From NCBI GenBank assembly GCA_011523615.1, contig WTGJ01000027.1, positions 138,756 through 202,755 of the forward strand: a stretch of DNA of 64,000 bases. The letters are read 5' to 3'. The DNA comes from Chloroflexota bacterium (lineage in GTDB: Bacteria > Chloroflexota > Anaerolineae > Aggregatilineales > Phototrophicaceae). The translations under genes and the position numbers were made by a program. This document shows, piece after piece, positions 2,919-52,010 of the stretch; positions within the stretch are counted from its first letter, which is position 1, and each line of letters starts with the position of its first letter. The notes under the pieces are model-generated. The model was not told the DNA's origin. It did not search any database and saw nothing but the letters and a program-made list of their open reading frames with translations.

Positions 2919-3857
2919 CTAATGGGGCTCAATCAAGTGCGCTCCCCGGTCGCTGATTCGCGTGAGGAAGGTTTGGCAAGGGATGTGCTGGTTCTGATAT
3001 ACCTCACTCACCGCTTGCGCACAACGGGCGGCTGCGCTGTGATTCGCACAGAACGCACAGAGAGTGGGTCCTGCGCCGCTGATGATCAATCCATAGGCGC
3101 CGGCTGCCTTCGCTGCCCGACGGGCTTCATCCAAAGCGAGGATCAAGTCTCTTCGCGCCGGTTCGATGATTGTGTCACTTTCCATCGCCTGAACAGCGGC
3201 TCGCAGATCGTTGTGGTGCAAAGCGTCGATCAATCGTCCTAAAGCCGCAGTTTGTTGGACGAGTTGCTTCAAAGGGACGCACTGCGGCAGAAGGGCACGG
3301 GCACTTGCCGTCGCGATGGGAATTTCCGGTGTGATCAGACAGAGCACAAGATCCGTTGGGATGGGGAGTGCTTGTACGGTTTCACCGCTCAGCAGGACGA
3401 TCCCACCATACAGCGCCGGCGCAACGTTATCGGCATGGCGGCCGCTCACCGCTGCTTCCGCTTCCAGGCATACAGAAAGCAATGCTGAGCGCTGGAGTGG
3501 TTTCCCCAGCAGGGCGTTGACGGCGACGGCCGCCGCCACCGCACTGGCAGCGCTGCTGCCGAGACCGCTGGCCAACGGCAAACCCTTCTCGATGATCAAC
3601 TCAATGCCAACCGGATCAGCGACCTTCTGCAACACGCCTTCTGCGGCAATCACGGCCGTATTTCGTCTGTCTCGGGGTAGCTTTCCCGCATCACCGTGAA
3701 TTTCTACAATGCGAACCCCGGCGCGGTCGCTCCGCATTGCGGTGACTCGGTCTCCCGGCTCATTCACAGCCAAGCCGAGGATATCGAAACCGACGCCCAG
3801 ATTGGCGACGGTGGCGGGAGCGAACGCGCTGATGCGCTCTATCTTACCTGCTTCCAT
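2919..3857 (-). CDS. thrB: Homoserine kinase
   Basis: This 312-residue GHMP-family kinase phosphorylates L-homoserine, the step before threonine synthase. The GHMP ATP-binding motif PLASGLGSSAASAV lies at about residues 93-106, the N-terminal PATVANLGVGFD motif at 14-25, and the C-terminal GAYGLIISGAGPT segment near 255-267. It is divergent from threonine synthase with only 35 bases between the two starts, so both ends of the threonine branch probably share one control region. Confidence 0.96.
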   Translation of the reverse strand: MEAGKIERISAFAPATVANLGVGFDILGLAVNEPGDRVTAMRSDRAGVRIVEIHGDAGKLPRDRRNTAVIAAEGVLQKVADPVGIELIIEKGLPLASGLGSSAASAVAAAVAVNALLGKPLQRSALLSVCLEAEAAVSGRHADNVAPALYGGIVLLSGETVQALPIPTDLVLCLITPEIPIATASARALLPQCVPLKQLVQQTAALGRLIDALHHNDLRAAVQAMESDTIIEPARRDLILALDEARRAAKAAGAYGLIISGAGPTLCAFCANHSAAARCAQAVSEVYQNQHIPCQTFLTRISDRGAHLIEPH

Positions 3858-3892
3858 GTATGCTATCTTACGCCAGCAACCATGAGTGTGCT

Positions 3893-5176
3893 ATGAAAAG
3901 TTGGTTGGAGTGCATCTCTTGTTCTGCAAGGATGCCCCTCACAGAGCGCCATTTCCTCTGTCCAAATTGTGATTCTTTGCTGGATGTGCGGCATGATTTT
4001 GCTCATCTCAGGGCAGATACCCTGCGGGATCGTTTCGCGGAACGATTGGGCAGCGCCGACTTGCCTTACAGCAGTGGAGTTTGGCGCTATAAGGAGTTGG
4101 TTTGGCCGGAGCTGGATGACGCCGCGATCATCAGTCACCCAGAAGGCAACACGAATTTGTACCATTCAGTTTCCCTGGGTAAATGCGCCGATGTTTCGCA
4201 GATATGGTTCAAGCACGAAGGAGAGAACCCCACCGGTTCATTCAAAGATCGCGGCATGACGGGCGCAATCACCCACGCGATTGCCGTGGGTGCGCGTCGC
4301 CTGGCCTGCGCTTCCACCGGCAATACGGCTTCTTCACTGGCTTCCTATGCGGCAAAAGCCAATCTACCTTGCATCGTCTTCGTTCATCGTGCGGGCGTTT
4401 CAGAGAGCAAACAAGCGCAAATGTTGGATTATGGTGCGACCGTCTTGCATATCGACACCGATTTCGACACCAATTTGGCGCTAGTACGGCAAATTGCGGA
4501 AAGTGGCCATGCTTACCTCGCCAATTCGCTCAATCCCATGCGTTTGGAGGGGCAGAAAACCATCATCTTTGAGTCATTGCAACAATTGAACTGGGCCGTG
4601 CCGGATTGGATCATCGTGCCGGGCGGCAATCTCGGCAATGTTTCTGCTTTTGGCAAAGCGCTGACCGAGTTGCATTCCCTGAGCATGATCCGCGATCTGC
4701 CGCGGCTGGCGGTGATCCAGGCGGAAGGGGCCAGCCCTTTTTATCGCAGTTATCAAAATGACTACGCGCCGCTGGATGTAAAACCCGCGCAAACCCTGGC
4801 CAGCGCGATTCGCATTGGGCAGCCAATCAATTTTCCTAAAGCGGTTCGCGCCCTGCGCGCTACGGAAGGCGTTGTGGAATGTGTGGGAGATGACGAGATA
4901 TTGGATGCGCGTTCTTTGTTGGGTCGGCACGGAATCGGCTGCGAACCCGCTTCTGCCGCGACTTACGCCGGGCTCCTCAAACTGCGCAAGGCCGGTGTCA
5001 TCTCTGCGGAAGAAACCGTGCTTTGTGTGCTGACCGGCCATGGGCTGAAAGATACTCAGACAGCCATCGCTTACCACATGGCGGAGTTACCGGAAATCGC
5101 GGGGAAGTACCTGAATCAGCCGGTTCCGGTTGAGGGGGACGTCTCGGCAATCCTGGCTGCTCTGCAATGGCAGTGA
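3893..5176 (+). CDS. thrC: Threonine synthase
   Basis: This PLP enzyme turns O-phosphohomoserine into threonine. I chose the ATG at 3893 (MKSWLECISC), which matches the usual N-terminus; the frame stays open upstream to 3860. The N-terminus carries two Cys pairs (C7/C10 and C23/C26) that form a zinc-ribbon-like module, as in the longer threonine synthases. The PLP lysine is K118 in NPTGSFKDRG, and the phosphate loop STGNTASS follows near residue 140. The protein is 427 residues long. It is divergent from thrB and convergent with the cystathionine gamma-synthase-like gene, 15 bases away. Confidence 0.96.
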   Translation: MKSWLECISCSARMPLTERHFLCPNCDSLLDVRHDFAHLRADTLRDRFAERLGSADLPYSSGVWRYKELVWPELDDAAIISHPEGNTNLYHSVSLGKCADVSQIWFKHEGENPTGSFKDRGMTGAITHAIAVGARRLACASTGNTASSLASYAAKANLPCIVFVHRAGVSESKQAQMLDYGATVLHIDTDFDTNLALVRQIAESGHAYLANSLNPMRLEGQKTIIFESLQQLNWAVPDWIIVPGGNLGNVSAFGKALTELHSLSMIRDLPRLAVIQAEGASPFYRSYQNDYAPLDVKPAQTLASAIRIGQPINFPKAVRALRATEGVVECVGDDEILDARSLLGRHGIGCEPASAATYAGLLKLRKAGVISAEETVLCVLTGHGLKDTQTAIAYHMAELPEIAGKYLNQPVPVEGDVSAILAALQWQ

Positions 5177-5191
5177 AGGATCCTGCGCCGG

Positions 5192-6412
5192 CTAATGGAC
5201 CGCTGCCAACGCTTGCGTCAAATCCGCGATGAGATCTGCCGCATCCTCTATGCCCACGGCGAAGCGGACCAGATTGTCGTGCATGTTCAGCTCCTGTCGC
5301 TCCCTGGGCGTCTTTTCGTAATAGCTCATCAAGGCAGGCTGCTCGATCAGACTTTCGACACCACCGAGGCTGGGCGCGATATATGGGATGCGCAGCCGAT
5401 CGATGAAGCGACTGGTTTGTTGTAGATCGCCATGGATGGTGAAACTGACGACGCCGCCGTAGCCATCCATTTGTTCTTTCGCGATGTGATGTTCCGGGTG
5501 TGAGGACAGGCCGGGGTACCAAACTTGCTCGATGGCCGGGTGTTCTTCCAGGAAATTCGCGACGTGCATTGCGGTTTCATTTTGTTGTTGGACGCGCAAA
5601 CCGAGCGTCTTGATGCCTCGCTCCAGGAGGTAAGCGCTGTGCGGGTCCAGCACACTGCCCAATACGCCGCGCGCGTCTTTGAGGGCGCGGATGTGTTGCG
5701 ACCGACCCACGATCACGCCGCCCATCATATCATTGTGGCCGGAGAAATATTTGGTCGCGCTGTGCATGACGAAATCCACCCCCCATTCCAAGGGCCGTTG
5801 GTTGACCGGAGTGGCGAAGGTGCTATCGATGATGGTCAGGGTTCGGCTCCGTTTCCCTATGGCAGCGAAACGTTCCATATTGACCACATGCAGGTATGGA
5901 TTGGTCGGACTTTCGGTGATCAAGAAGCGAGTTTTGCCCGGGCGGATCGCTCCCTCCAGGGCGTCATAATCGCCTGCGGGTACGATGCTGGTGGCTATAC
6001 CCAATCTGCGCAGATAGGTCTGACAAAATTGTCGGGTGCGGCGATAACAATCATCCGTCATGACGATGTGTGCACCGCTGGGCAAGACAGCGAGGAGGAG
6101 GGTCGTGATGGCCGCCATGCCAGAACCATAGAGCACCGCATCTTCGCCCGCGTCCAGCTCAGCCAAACGGCGTTCCACGGCAGCGATCGTCGGATTCCCA
6201 TAGCGACCGTATTCGCCACGATCGACCCCATCACCCCAGACTTTGCTTTCCATGAAATCCACAAGTTCCTGGGTATTGCGGAAGGTGTAGGTTGCGGTTT
6301 GGACGATCGGCGTGGTCAGCGAATGATAGCCTTTGATGCGTTGACTGCCGCTATGAACGGAACGCGTGCTCTGACCCCTTTCGCTGTCTGTTTCGCTTGG
6401 TTTCGTTGCCAT
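5192..6412 (-). CDS. metB: Cystathionine gamma-synthase-like PLP enzyme (trans-sulfuration, methionine pathway)
   Basis: This 406-residue enzyme belongs to the Cys/Met-metabolism PLP family. The start at 6412 is chosen because AGGAG lies about 7 bases upstream; the frame stays open further 5' through the riboswitch and is not coding there. The PLP lysine is K221 in SATKYFSGHND. Sequences such as DDCYRRTR, TESPTNPYL and DSTFATPVNQ resemble the plant-type cystathionine gamma-synthases. Cystathionine lyase, methionine lyase or O-acetylhomoserine sulfhydrylase cannot be excluded from motifs alone. The SAM riboswitch upstream and the neighbouring homoserine kinase favour methionine synthesis. Confidence 0.88.
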   Translation of the reverse strand: MATKPSETDSERGQSTRSVHSGSQRIKGYHSLTTPIVQTATYTFRNTQELVDFMESKVWGDGVDRGEYGRYGNPTIAAVERRLAELDAGEDAVLYGSGMAAITTLLLAVLPSGAHIVMTDDCYRRTRQFCQTYLRRLGIATSIVPAGDYDALEGAIRPGKTRFLITESPTNPYLHVVNMERFAAIGKRSRTLTIIDSTFATPVNQRPLEWGVDFVMHSATKYFSGHNDMMGGVIVGRSQHIRALKDARGVLGSVLDPHSAYLLERGIKTLGLRVQQQNETAMHVANFLEEHPAIEQVWYPGLSSHPEHHIAKEQMDGYGGVVSFTIHGDLQQTSRFIDRLRIPYIAPSLGGVESLIEQPALMSYYEKTPRERQELNMHDNLVRFAVGIEDAADLIADLTQALAAVH

Positions 6413-6445
6413 TGACACTCTCCTTTTCCGTATTCGAGTGTCCAA

Positions 6446-6473
6446 CAAAAAGAGACTTCCTGGGTGAAGTCTC
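6446..6473 (-). terminator. Intrinsic terminator (attenuator) of the SAM riboswitch
   Basis: On the minus strand an 8-bp perfect stem GAGACTTC / GAAGTCTC (6466-6473 with 6452-6459) closes a 6-base loop and is followed by TTTTTG. It lies between the SAM aptamer and the ribosome binding site of the metB-like gene. High SAM should therefore cause premature termination. Confidence 0.9.
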
Positions 6474-6490
6474 ATCGAGTTGCCTGTTGC

Positions 6491-6588
6491 TCTCATCTGC
6501 CAGATTGCTCTGCCGGACTTGGCACCTTCCCAATGCTGGGGGTTGCCGCGGAATCAAAGGGCCGTTCCCTCCTCCGCTCTCGATAAGA
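6491..6588 (-). ncRNA. SAM-I (S-box) riboswitch aptamer
   Basis: Read on the minus strand, the element starts with CTTATCGAGAG and continues with GGAGGGAACGGCCC, GATTCCGCGGCAACC, AAGGTGCCAAGTCC and a closing GATGAG. These are the conserved S-box blocks in the right order. P1 pairs CTTATC (6582-6587) with GATGAG (6492-6497). The aptamer is followed by an intrinsic terminator and then the metB-like gene, the normal layout for SAM-repressed methionine genes. Confidence 0.93.
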
Positions 6589-6620
6589 TGGAATTGTTAA
6601 GCTTCGGTACGCCTATGGGC

Positions 6621-6649
6621 AGGATAGTGGATTTGCCGACGCTCTGCAA
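6621..6649 (-). promoter_or_regulatory. Candidate promoter of the SAM-riboswitch transcript
   Basis: On the minus strand TTGCAG (6644-6649) and TATCCT (6621-6626) are spaced by 17 bases. This puts the start about 25 bases before the aptamer. The match to consensus is moderate, so position is the main support. Confidence 0.4.
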
Positions 6650-6657
6650 GGCATAAC

Positions 6658-6948
6658 TCAGAGCAGTTCATGCCTCGTCTGTGTGATCTGAACCTGGGGA
6701 TAATTTCTCGTTAGCCATTTCTCAACGGAGGCCAATTGTTTTTGCACTTGTGCGCCGCTCGCACTGATGGTGACGATGGCGATGGTTGCCGATTGCCAAA
6801 GTTCATGATCATCGACCTCGGCTGCCGCGTAGTTCCCAGAATCTCGCAATCGTGTGAGCAGTGATTTCATGATGCGACGTTTATCCTTCAAGGAATGCAC
6901 CGCCGGTAGCCAGAGATTCATCGTCGCAATGCCTATGGTCGTGCCCAT
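6658..6948 (-). CDS. DUF503 family protein (YlxP-like)
   Basis: This 96-residue protein matches the small DUF503 family. It has an N-terminal beta strand (IGIATMNLWLP), the diagnostic HSLKDKRRIMKSL segment at about residues 18-30, and a central AAAEVDDHELWQSATIAI region. YlxP of Firmicutes is encoded near ribosome-maturation genes; its exact function was not settled to my knowledge. Here it stands alone, divergent from the LysM/M23 gene. Confidence 0.85.
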   Translation of the reverse strand: MGTTIGIATMNLWLPAVHSLKDKRRIMKSLLTRLRDSGNYAAAEVDDHELWQSATIAIVTISASGAQVQKQLASVEKWLTRNYPQVQITQTRHELL

Positions 6949-7032: not shown

Positions 7033-8445
7033 ATGATTCCAGCGCACCTTTCGCAGCGTAAAATGTGGCGGATTGTCGCTCTTTTCCTCATGATTTTGCT
7101 CTGTTTTGGCGTTACCGAGGCGCAGGAAGGCGTGGGTTTGTACCTGCACACGGTACAGCCCGGAGAAACTTTGGCGAGCGTCGCACAGAGCGCAGGAACG
7201 ACGGTTGCGGTCATCCAACGCATCAATGCGCTTGCGGAAGAAACCCTGCAAACCGGGCAAGAATTGTGGCTCCCGGCCAGGCACACCGCGATCGAGCATC
7301 GAGTCCAACCGGGGGATACGCTATATGGCATTGCAGCACTCTATGGTTTGGATGCTGCCGAAATCGCCGCTTTGAATGATATGGAACTACACGATTTGAT
7401 ATATGTCGATCAGTTGTTGCGATTGCGGGTCGTTTCCGTAGATCTGCTGAAGGCCAACCCCTTCACGCTCGTGCACAGCGTCCAACCAGGGGAGACCTTG
7501 TCGGCAATTGTCCGGCGATACGACGTCCCATTTGAACAATTGATTCTCGTCAATGAAATCGAAGACCCGTCCTTGCTATACGTGGGTGCCGAATTGCGCA
7601 TCCCGGGCTGGGAGATATTGTTCGCCCCGAAAGGTTTGCCTTCTGTGGTAGAAGCGATTGATCTGCGGCCTACACCGCTCCGAGAAGGGGAAACGGCACG
7701 GCTATGGATCAGAACGGATCGGGCGTTTCAGGTATCGGTTCGGTTTCTCGGAAAGGATTACCCCGCTCATGCAGTGGAAAACGGCCGGGAACATTTCATC
7801 CTGCTGAGCGTACCGGTATTCACCGAAGCAGCGCTGGAACAGATGGAAGTCACCCTGCTTGCGCTGGACGAGAATGAGCAACACTCATTCATCTTGCAAG
7901 CACAAGTCCTAGCGAGCCATTTTGGTGAGGAGAGCATCAATCTCTTGGCGGATCGGCTGAACTTACTGGATGCAGAATTAGAAGCTGCCGAAAATGAGAG
8001 AATCCGCTCGATCATGTCAGGCGTTCAGCCCTGGCGCAGCTTTGGTGGGGGGATGAAAGCACCCGTTGCCGGTTCGGTGATCTCTGATTTTGGCACGCGG
8101 CGTTCCTACAACGGGGGGCCTTTCGACCGTTTTCACAGCGGTACGGATTTTACGGCAACCCTCGGCGCACCCGTTTTTGCCGCGGCACCCGGAGTCGTGG
8201 TGATGGCGGAACGATTGGCGGTGCGTGGGCTGGCCACCATCATCGATCACGGTTGGGGCGTCTATACCGGTTATTGGCACCAGGATAGTCTTGCCGTTGG
8301 GGTCGGGCAAACGGTCAACGTTGGGCAAATCATCGGCGTCATCGGCAACACGGGTCGGGTATCGGGCGTGCACTTGCACTGGGAGCTCTGGGTCAATGGC
8401 GTCCCGGTGAATCCGCTGCAATGGTTGGAAGAAGTGTTTCCTTAA
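7033..8445 (+). CDS. Secreted LysM-M23 peptidoglycan endopeptidase-like protein
   Basis: This is an exported cell-wall protein of about 470 residues. A signal peptide (core IVALFLMILLCFG, likely cut after VTEA) is followed by three LysM repeats, beginning HTVQPGETL, EHRVQPGDTL and HSVQPGETL, within about residues 38-190. A linker domain comes next, then a C-terminal M23 domain (about 330-465). The M23 zinc ligands are visible as HSGTDF and HLHWE, so the domain should be catalytically competent. The start could also be the ATG at 7063; the frame is open to 6973. Its stop overlaps that of the next, opposite-strand gene. Confidence 0.93.
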   Translation: MIPAHLSQRKMWRIVALFLMILLCFGVTEAQEGVGLYLHTVQPGETLASVAQSAGTTVAVIQRINALAEETLQTGQELWLPARHTAIEHRVQPGDTLYGIAALYGLDAAEIAALNDMELHDLIYVDQLLRLRVVSVDLLKANPFTLVHSVQPGETLSAIVRRYDVPFEQLILVNEIEDPSLLYVGAELRIPGWEILFAPKGLPSVVEAIDLRPTPLREGETARLWIRTDRAFQVSVRFLGKDYPAHAVENGREHFILLSVPVFTEAALEQMEVTLLALDENEQHSFILQAQVLASHFGEESINLLADRLNLLDAELEAAENERIRSIMSGVQPWRSFGGGMKAPVAGSVISDFGTRRSYNGGPFDRFHSGTDFTATLGAPVFAAAPGVVVMAERLAVRGLATIIDHGWGVYTGYWHQDSLAVGVGQTVNVGQIIGVIGNTGRVSGVHLHWELWVNGVPVNPLQWLEEVFP

Positions 8446-9629
8446 TGGCTCTGAAAAGCGTCATCCAGCGCTTCGAAATCGGTGAATAAAAAGTGGTCGT
8501 GATAATAATGAATCCAGAGAAAGGCCAACAAGGCCGTGTAGTAGGCGACATCGAAGCGCCATAGCCCAAGCCGTTTCAAGAATTCGGGGTGGGTGGGGTC
8601 CAGATAGCCGGGGGTGAAAAACTGCGCCAGAGCGTAGACAATGGCGAAGATGACCGCGGAACCGACGAGCAGCAAAGCGCTGAAGAAGTAAAGGCCCCGC
8701 GAATCTTCCCCTTTGCTGAAGCGCGCGACGAGCGGAGCATCTTTTTCCAGGCTGCCATATTGCTGACGGATCTTGATGATGAAGAAGGTGATCGCCAGAT
8801 ATTGGAACGAATGCCAGGTGTTCAGGCCCTGAAAGGCCGTATCCAGGTTGGGTAGCGCGGGGATGGTGAACGCGACCAGAACGGTGAAGCCGATGAACAC
8901 GGTCTTGGGCCAATTGATATAGCCGCCCCTGATCTCGTGCGCGGTCTTGACGACGAACGCGACTGCTGCCACCGCAAAGATGCCGGAGATGCTCACAAAG
9001 AGCCAGGTTTGTTGGAAGATGCCGGGGATTACGCGGGTCAAGTCGTTCGTGCCGATGTCAAAATTCCCTCGACTGATCTTATAGGCGGCGATGGGGAAGA
9101 GAGATGTGAGGATCACCGCGTAATCGATCAGCCGAGCGATCGGGCTGATGGCGCTGGGAGAAACCCGGCCATCGGGACGGACAAACTTTCTTTCTTTGTG
9201 GTTGTACAGCTCAACGATGTAGGTGATTTGATGCAAGACATGGGTCGACGCCCAAAAGAAGAAGACGGTAAGCAGCAATTCCAAATTCAAGAAAGCGAGA
9301 GAGACCACCACTACGGGTACGATCACGGTCGATCGGATGAGCATGGGGTAGCGCTTCTTGAAGTTTTCGTCCAACCCAGTGCGCAAGAAGGTCGACATCA
9401 TGTGCGGCCCGCCCACCGCAATGGCCACGAAACCGTTGATGATGTTTCGGCTCAAGTCCGCATCCAACTGGAAGATGTTGCTGGAAAGGAGGAGATACAG
9501 CAGGTAAGGCAACGGCACTACGACCACGCTGAAGGTGATGAAGATGAGATCCCAGCGGCGGCTCCGCAACCACAGGCTATCTCGTTCCACTTGTAAATCG
9601 GCGTTCAGCGCTGGCGTAATTACGGTCAT
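8442..9629 (-). CDS. Histidine-rich polytopic membrane protein, unassigned
   Basis: About 395 residues with roughly 8-10 membrane helices; I do not recognise the family. Histidines cluster at the membrane faces: GGPHMM, STHVLHQI with ELYNHK, NTWHSFQYL, and WIHYYHDHF near the C-terminus. Such spacing resembles membrane di-metal enzymes of the desaturase/hydroxylase or Brp/Blh kind, but no textbook motif set is complete, so this is only a suggestion. It follows thymidine kinase on the same strand, last in the rplU-rpmA-rpmE-tdk run, after a gap of 56 bases. The ATG at 9647 is an alternative start. Confidence 0.7.
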   Translation of the reverse strand: MTVITPALNADLQVERDSLWLRSRRWDLIFITFSVVVVPLPYLLYLLLSSNIFQLDADLSRNIINGFVAIAVGGPHMMSTFLRTGLDENFKKRYPMLIRSTVIVPVVVVSLAFLNLELLLTVFFFWASTHVLHQITYIVELYNHKERKFVRPDGRVSPSAISPIARLIDYAVILTSLFPIAAYKISRGNFDIGTNDLTRVIPGIFQQTWLFVSISGIFAVAAVAFVVKTAHEIRGGYINWPKTVFIGFTVLVAFTIPALPNLDTAFQGLNTWHSFQYLAITFFIIKIRQQYGSLEKDAPLVARFSKGEDSRGLYFFSALLLVGSAVIFAIVYALAQFFTPGYLDPTHPEFLKRLGLWRFDVAYYTALLAFLWIHYYHDHFLFTDFEALDDAFQSH

Positions 9630-9685
9630 TGATTTACCTGAAACCACGCAAGGGATTATAAATTTTCAATGAGGAAAAAACCAGT

Positions 9686-48784: not shown

Positions 48785-48867
48785 GCCCAGGTGGCGGAAT
48801 GGCATACGCGGCAGGTTGAGGGCCTGTGCCCTTCGTGGGCGTGGAGGTTCGAATCCTCTCCTGGGCA
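48785..48867 (+). tRNA. tRNA-Leu (anticodon GAG)
   Basis: An 83-nt class II tRNA. Acceptor GCCCAGG pairs with CCTGGGC. The anticodon stem GCAGG/CCTGT holds loop TTGAGGG, giving GAG. The long variable arm GCCC-TTCG-TGGGC is typical of Leu, and the T loop is TTCGAAT. The discriminator is A and no CCA is encoded. Confidence 0.95.
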
Positions 48868-50756: not shown

Positions 50757-50829
50757 GCGCCCATAGCTCAGCGGTCAGAGCTTCGGTCTTCGGAACCGAG
50801 AGTCGGGGGTTCGAATCCCTCTGGGCGTA
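50757..50829 (+). tRNA. tRNA-Arg (anticodon TCG)
   Basis: A 73-nt tRNA. Acceptor GCGCCCA pairs with TGGGCGT (first pair G-U). D stem GCTC/GAGC, anticodon stem TCGGT/ACCGA with loop CTTCGGA giving TCG (reads CGA/CGG), T stem GGGGG/CCCTC with TTCGAAT. Discriminator A, no encoded CCA. Confidence 0.94.
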
Positions 50830-51937: not shown

Positions 51938-52010
51938 GCCCCCTTCGTCTAGTGGCCTAGGACGTAGCCCTCTCAAGGCTAAAACAGGGGTTCGAGTCCC
52001 CTAGGGGGCA
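51938..52010 (+). tRNA. tRNA-Glu (anticodon CTC)
   Basis: A 73-nt tRNA. Acceptor GCCCCCT pairs with AGGGGGC. The anticodon stem TAGCC/GGCTA has loop CTCTCAA, giving CTC, and the T arm is AGGGG-TTCGAGT-CCCCT. Discriminator A, no encoded CCA. It lies 42 bases before a secreted-protein gene. Confidence 0.95.

Follow-up and report, generated by a model that had tools for sequence, protein, structure and literature searches.

A SAM-I riboswitch that very probably governs transcription of a plant-type cystathionine gamma-synthase gene in a Chloroflexota bacterium

The gene for a plant-type cystathionine gamma-synthase (CGS) found in the window (i.e., the whole 64,000-nt stretch of DNA that was analysed) is preceded by a SAM-I riboswitch and an intrinsic terminator (Table 1), and both the sequence and the modelled folds indicate that this riboswitch very probably shuts off transcription of the gene when SAM is high (we set the probability of this reading at roughly 0.87). 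At low SAM, the 5′ strand of the P1 helix, together with the GAG of J1/2, would quit the aptamer's own 3′ strand and pair with CUCGAUGAGA, a sequence that carries a second copy of the GATGAGA of the P1 3′ strand. The helix formed in this way (P1′) would occupy four of the eight pairs of the terminator 5′ arm, so that RNA polymerase would read through into the CGS gene. When SAM is bound, P1 would be held before the second copy can invade, this copy would stay free, and the terminator would form, with a stop of transcription ~35 nt ahead of the CGS start codon. The product of the gene would form cystathionine, for methionine. The switch itself is one more SAM-I riboswitch, and its target is of greater interest.

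Table 1. Features of the CGS leader and of the adjoining genes in the window.
Feature	Positions	Strand	Basis or remark
SAM-I riboswitch aptamer (S box)	6490..6589	(-)	RF00162 covariance model, full length
P1 5′ strand UCUUAUC	6582..6588	(-)	doubles, with GAG of J1/2 (6581-6579), as predicted 5′ strand of P1′
P1 3′ strand, first GATGAGA copy	6491..6497	(-)	RF00162 match and duplex pairs
CUCGAUGAGA, second GATGAGA copy with CUC ahead	6470..6479	(-)	3′ strand of predicted antiterminator P1′
Intrinsic terminator hairpin	6452..6473	(-)	arms 6473-6466 and 6459-6452; ~35 nt ahead of CGS
Terminator U-run TTTTT	6447..6451	(-)	sequence and terminator scan
Ribosome-binding site AGGAG	6420..6424	(-)	sequence; 7 nt ahead of ATG
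Plant-type CGS, 406 aa	5192..6412	(-)	PF01053, 426 bits; tobacco CGS best
Threonine synthase (thrC), uses O-phosphohomoserine	3860..5176	(+)	TIGR00260, 246.5 bits, above cut-off of 167.1; convergent with CGS
Homoserine kinase (thrB), makes O-phosphohomoserine	2919..3857	(-)	NF002288, 301.6, above 194; TIGR00191, 218.7, above 168.25

A preliminary description of the region had proposed a SAM-I riboswitch with the S-box blocks and the P1 pairing at positions 6446-6588. A covariance-model search, whose failure would have counted against the proposal, bore this out by a wide margin: RF00162 was matched from 6589 to 6490 on the reverse strand over its full length (model positions 1-108 of 108), with 87.8 bits (E 1.8e-19; gathering score 44.4). 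The proposed span was off by no more than one or two bases, the model match covering 6490-6589 and the U-run reaching to 6447. With a model built from 24 aptamers of the clade, that of the window included, the window aptamer scored 104.9 bits. Twelve of the 27 consensus pairs of these aptamers (P1 to P4, four-way junction) showed changes on both sides that preserve the pair, i.e., covariation; for P1 such changes were seen in none of the five pairs. The 221-nt leader folds with -75.5 kcal/mol (z -2.85 relative to shuffles), and a search by consensus found no sigma-70-like promoter for it. Elsewhere in the same genome RF00162 matched only once, ahead of metK, and the only other Rfam matches in the window at the gathering score were three tRNA genes on the forward strand (48785-48867, 50757-50829 and 51938-52010). 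An ATG at 6496 opens the longest frame of the CGS gene and was rejected as its start in favour of the ATG at 6412, since the former lies inside the aptamer and the AGGAG fits the latter. Control of translation by a ribosome site hidden in P1 was likewise rejected, because this site lies ~65 nt beyond the aptamer with the terminator in between. In the predicted fold, a 7-pair hairpin directly ahead of the start codon, GACACTC...GAGTGTC (6442-6414, reverse strand), reaches the ribosome site, and it might damp the translation of CGS.

The terminator, GAGACUUC-ACCCAG-GAAGUCUC, has eight pairs, four of them G-C. It was the only site detected by a terminator scan of positions 6380-6760; since 0.6 sites are expected in shuffles, the scan alone is weak evidence, and it is the position between the aptamer and the gene that counts. 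An 8-bp terminator with a U-run before the ribosome site had been noticed earlier and was recovered here. The two GATGAGA copies (6497-6491 and 6476-6470) had been called nearly identical, with the second placed just before the terminator; both points had to be corrected, as the copies are identical and the second shares four bases (GAGA, 6473-6470) with the terminator 5′ arm. The idea that the copies compete was upheld, in that the helix of the second copy and the terminator are mutually exclusive in their predicted pairs. P1′ is predicted to join UCUUAUCGAG (6588-6579) to CUCGAUGAGA (6479-6470) by 10 pairs and to remove four terminator pairs. Because the second copy would form a 10-bp helix that costs the terminator four pairs, the P1 5′ strand is probably the one that changes its partner in the switch. 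The duplex of the P1 5′ strand with the downstream 43 nt had an energy of -14.3 kcal/mol, the mean of the shuffles being -7.2, and 24 of 5000 shuffles equalled it, so that P1′ might conceivably have arisen by chance pairing. In nearest-neighbour estimates, which take no account of tertiary contacts and are no proof of in vivo behaviour, the transcript modelled without SAM preferred P1′ over P1 by 5.1-6.4 kcal/mol when its end lay +21 to +33 nt beyond the aptamer; not until its own 3′ arm had emerged did the terminator win, by ~2.5 kcal/mol. Formation of P1′ first, and of the terminator after emergence of its 3′ arm, is what a co-transcriptional OFF switch should show, and the decision would be kinetic.

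In the textbook S box, the antiterminator is built with the 3′ strand of P1. The same riboswitch and terminator could operate in this way in the window, i.e., by pairing of the P1 3′ strand with the terminator 5′ arm, in which case the second GATGAGA copy would be incidental. This arrangement was found in the clade: when pairing in truncated transcripts was analyzed by partition function under one rule in 75 distinct switches (the metK switch of the same genome included), the P1 3′ strand was used in 16, and the P1 5′ strand in two (the window and L018); six were mixed, 41 used neither strand, and no terminator was found in the remaining 10. Under another rule, in which near-copies were counted, 17 of 30 relatives had a terminator region that pairs chiefly with the P1 3′ strand. 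In the window, however, the P1 3′ strand paired with the terminator region with only -7.3 kcal/mol, and 490 of 1000 shuffles were as good. Furthermore, in the truncated window transcript the expected pairs of the terminator region amounted to 9.9 with the P1 5′ strand plus J1/2, and to 0.9 with the P1 3′ strand. Hence, the window was not found to belong with the S boxes whose antiterminator is made of the P1 3′ strand, the P1 5′ strand being predicted to pair instead, and we regard the textbook arrangement as quite improbable here. What the window has in common with the SAM-I (S box) family RF00162 is the whole-length aptamer, the downstream terminator, the methionine-pathway gene and the presumed OFF logic, whereas its predicted switching strand is the 5′ strand of P1, paired with a repeat of the P1 3′ strand that extends into the terminator. 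Competition between P1 and the antiterminator of the S box has been described, with the strand not named in the available part of the source (PMC3656099), and transcription attenuation is perhaps common in Chloroflexi, as far as the accessible text of another report goes (PMC2258182). The SAM-I riboswitch of the Xanthomonas campestris met operon also governs methionine synthesis; according to the available portion of that work (PMC7270179) its control is mainly translational, whereas a terminator is present in the window.

The exchange on the P1 5′ strand, if real, would be a simple case of platform change around a fixed aptamer. The alternative helix P1′ was not conserved among the relatives of the window switch, and the window platform is a minority design, since the P1 5′ strand was clearly used by only two of the 75 switches. 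Many close relatives carry another platform, in which a segment, frequently with a short hairpin in it, is followed by AACTC and an AGACTTC...GAAGTCTTTTT terminator. The window platform could, by sequence, be derived from the ACTCGAAGACTTC platform (as in L016, L022 and L049) by a small change to ACTCGATGAGACTTC. The AGACTTC...GAAGTCTTTTT word recurs ~20-60 nt past the aptamer, often after AACTC (L016, L017, L018, L020, L022, L049, L086, L088, L118, L122, L130, L134 and others). Because this word is more alike across relatives than terminator function requires, its sequence suggests a second pairing partner. The second SAM-I switch of the same genome (L002:1501-1620, reverse strand; C4:162812-162931) lies ahead of metK (TIGR01034, 558.7 bits; cut-off 309.4). 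By one measure its P1 5′ strand formed a duplex of -21.8 kcal/mol with the downstream region, the partner apparently being the terminator loop plus 3′ arm; in the partition-function test the pairing of this strand with the downstream region was absent.

The target of the switch had been described as a plant-like CGS, and this assignment stood: besides the match to PF01053, tobacco CGS was the nearest relative of solved structure (411 bits), followed by methionine gamma-lyase (292 bits), and the two CGS enzymes fell in a joint clade. The two share 47.8% identity over 387 columns. Identity to tobacco CGS was 43.8-51.7% in the 96 clade rows, 39-41% in three intermediate genes and 34.1-43.9% in 35 others. 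In a tree of 59 rows, tobacco CGS and the Chloroflexota rows were separated from 17 others with 100/100 support. This was the more careful of two trees (the first had 64 rows), and the paralog of the same genome (L141) was excluded from it for its long branch; for both trees, most of the plant-type rows and some of the others had been set aside beforehand. Before the residue alignment, ten loci were dropped by name, together with identical rows and rows of less than 330 residues. Plant and Chloroflexota CGS may descend from a common ancestor to the exclusion of the other CGS compared; with one plant sequence in the tree, tobacco CGS fitted equally well as nested in the Chloroflexota rows or as sister to them (p-AU 0.518). 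Plant-type CGS genes were also seen on MAG contigs labelled Bacteroidetes (L013), Deltaproteobacteria (L070) and Bacteroidales (L084), and these are likely to be mislabelled bins, because L013 falls among the Chloroflexota rows in the tree. In plasmid records there was no CGS match of at least 60% identity, the identity among the matches listed being ~42%.

Tobacco Lys165, which we take to be the residue responsible for phosphate recognition in plant CGS, aligns with Arg125 of the window enzyme, in the motif CYRRTR. This position was basic (Arg or Lys) in 94 of the 96 plant-type rows and in 0 of the 35 others, E. coli CGS having GG there (CYGGSY). The window enzyme thus has in common with tobacco CGS (PDB 1qgn/1i41) the identity given above, an exclusive clade and a basic residue at the Lys165 position, and differs from it in having no N-terminal extension, the match starting at residue 17 versus residue 60 of the solved chain; this extension is the regulatory part of the plant enzyme and lies outside the catalytic class. 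The three intermediate genes (L142, L143 and L144, all of family f38) fall inside the CGS group in the trees, carry Val, Val and Gly, respectively, at the Lys165 position, and belong to genomes with MetX, so that their sequences possibly reflect a change of substrate. L144 (G093) counts as plant-type in the genome table (393 bits) and, by BLAST score, as intermediate in the residue and identity counts.

A SAM-I riboswitch was located directly upstream of 90 of 102 distinct plant-type CGS genes (near-identical genes merged, the window not counted). RF00162 was matched ahead of CGS in 43 of 49 loci of named genomes (L011-L056, L070, L076, L082), in 25 of the 29 class-survey loci (L086-L114) and in 19 of 20 loci scanned in the family (L115-L134); the 24-aptamer model added L135-L139, a further five out of the nine loci of the phylum survey, and three loci cut by a contig end (L037, L047 and L124). 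Some of all these loci are the same gene from two sources. In the class at large, some SAM-I match was present in 140 of 150 genomes. No SAM-I match was found at twelve plant-type CGS loci (L028, L030, L039, L070, L091, L107, L109, L114, L163, L164, L165 and L171), the scan of L039 covering just 503 nt upstream. SAM riboswitches ahead of probable cysteine and methionine genes have already been reported in Chloroflexi (PMC3766115), and the available part of that report names neither a plant-type CGS nor a phosphohomoserine route among the regulons. In the open-access literature, outside which most subscription papers lie, we found no plant-type CGS or phosphohomoserine route described in Chloroflexota.

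Of 102 distinct loci, 51 have the CGS gene convergent with thrC; among the 40 whose downstream sequence reaches 3 kb or more, the number is 32. In convergent loci with that much sequence downstream, thrB was also present in 32 of 33 (loci unmerged; the exception was L021). All 51 distinct convergent loci carry SAM-I, two of them as partial matches at a contig end. In 32 wider class and phylum loci, whose flanks reach up to ~1.5 kb, neither thrC nor thrB was seen, and the cluster of CGS with the threonine genes is therefore a feature of the nearer relatives of the window. At L028, L030 and L091, thrB lies 33-58 nt behind CGS in the same orientation, and no SAM-I match was found upstream of CGS. 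This CGS-thrB order is found in these 3 of the 12 loci devoid of SAM-I, the other nine being without it, and it may represent one or two events, since L028 groups with L030 as its sister in the tree, and the position of L091 apart from them is weakly supported. If CGS and thrB form an operon, a SAM-dependent stop ahead of it would deprive the cell of threonine as well, so that the absence of SAM-I from these loci fits CGS and threonine synthase sharing O-phosphohomoserine, as though a gene also needed for threonine had to be spared shut-off by SAM. Further along the window, a 401-aa protein encoded at 8442-9647 (reverse strand) had no family match in Pfam or NCBIfam at E 0.001.

The genome of the window (31 contigs totalling 2.64 Mb; completeness 94%) has Anaerolineae MAGs of Chloroflexota as its nearest named relatives. 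In it, the search for MetX gave background only (best 21.1 bits; MetX genes of the class score 433-492, one second copy 253) and MetA was not found, absences that could be a gap because the genome is 94% complete; MetH scored 1026.1 bits, just above its cut-off of 1010.85. Among 150 class genomes, 62 carry plant-type CGS (a best match of at least 390 bits, plus G124 with a partial gene), of which 43 have neither MetX nor MetA, 14 have MetX and five have MetA, whereas 40 of the 88 genomes without plant-type CGS lack both acyltransferases. The difference between 43 of 62 and 40 of 88 gave p 0.0046 in a Fisher test that ignores relatedness, and p 0.021 when the intermediate genomes G036, G067 and G131 were counted in. 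In nine further plant-type genomes of the phylum survey, in which MetX alone was searched for, MetX was present in seven, all of family f61 outside the class.

Given the sequence class, the basic residue in place of glycine at the Lys165 position, the adjoining thrB and thrC genes and the failure to find MetX or MetA in the genome, the likeliest substrate of the window enzyme is O-phosphohomoserine, as in plants, and this analogy is what we favour, if with less confidence than the switch. The enzyme might instead use O-succinyl- or O-acetylhomoserine like other bacterial CGS, its likeness to the plant enzyme being a matter of phylogeny only. The acyltransferases found in 19 of the 62 class genomes with plant-type CGS and in seven of the nine further genomes speak for this, as do the MetA gene that follows CGS directly on the same strand in G128 and the basic residue, retained in most of the plant-type genes examined from genomes with MetX or MetA. 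However, 43 of the 62 genomes, that of the window included, have neither acyltransferase, thrC and thrB adjoin CGS in the nearer relatives, 94 of 96 rows carry Arg or Lys at the Lys165 position, and the three f38 genes that lack the residue sit in genomes with MetX, so that we hold an acylhomoserine substrate to be unlikely for the window enzyme. The basic residue alone does not predict the pathway, because it is kept beside MetX or MetA and is lost in L156 and L157, the two exceptions among the 96, whose genomes showed neither acyltransferase. The plant-type enzymes may not have one substrate everywhere, since MetX or MetA coexists with them in some genomes. That the window enzyme is not a CGS at all, i.e., that a methionine gamma-lyase or a cystathionine gamma-lyase is under SAM control, seems very improbable. 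It is true that none of the 25 NCBIfam families listed gave an equivalog at cut-off (met_gam_lyase was second best, with 344.5 of 549.7 bits; the paralog at C19:874261-875415 had none either), and that lyases come next after tobacco CGS among solved structures. Nevertheless, tobacco CGS leads by 119 bits and forms an exclusive clade with the window enzyme, which lacks the LYGGTY/LYGGSY motif common in the other rows, and repression by SAM suits the synthesis of methionine, not its breakdown.

We see an even chance that a good part of the Anaerolineae (the class of the window, as judged from the names of its relatives) follows the plant route to methionine: thrB would supply O-phosphohomoserine, threonine synthase and the SAM-I-governed plant-type CGS would compete for it, and SAM would feed back on CGS in the plant and the Chloroflexota lineages by unrelated means. 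As part of this same reading, the competing enzymes would be encoded in one gene cluster in the nearer relatives of the window, and SAM-I on CGS alone would set the split. In the plant feedback on CGS, SAM is the effector and the nascent peptide is the means. Control in the window would be exerted by a riboswitch, and that of plant CGS is a post-transcriptional feedback (PMC13257386, in its available part). If the substrate assignment is true, a methionine branch point taught as a plant trait would exist in many members of a bacterial class, with its own SAM feedback on the same enzyme, and there would be bacterial relatives for tracing the origin of plant CGS. A bacterial methionine branch at O-phosphohomoserine exists with MetM/MetO of Streptomyces, which leads directly to homocysteine; it differs from the window CGS in using a non-homologous, threonine-synthase-like enzyme and a sulfur carrier.

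The CGS of G128 that precedes MetA (L152, G128:C116) is a divergent plant-type enzyme with the motif SYGKTR, 52.7% identical to the window enzyme and 43.8% to that of tobacco. In family f61, a separate SAM-I switch precedes MetX by ~1.5 kb in the same orientation (G216:C66, G257:C53, G225:C309, G249:C46, G281:C49, G312:C1 and G327:C1), and because of this arrangement a second, acetylhomoserine-type route may coexist there with the plant-type CGS.
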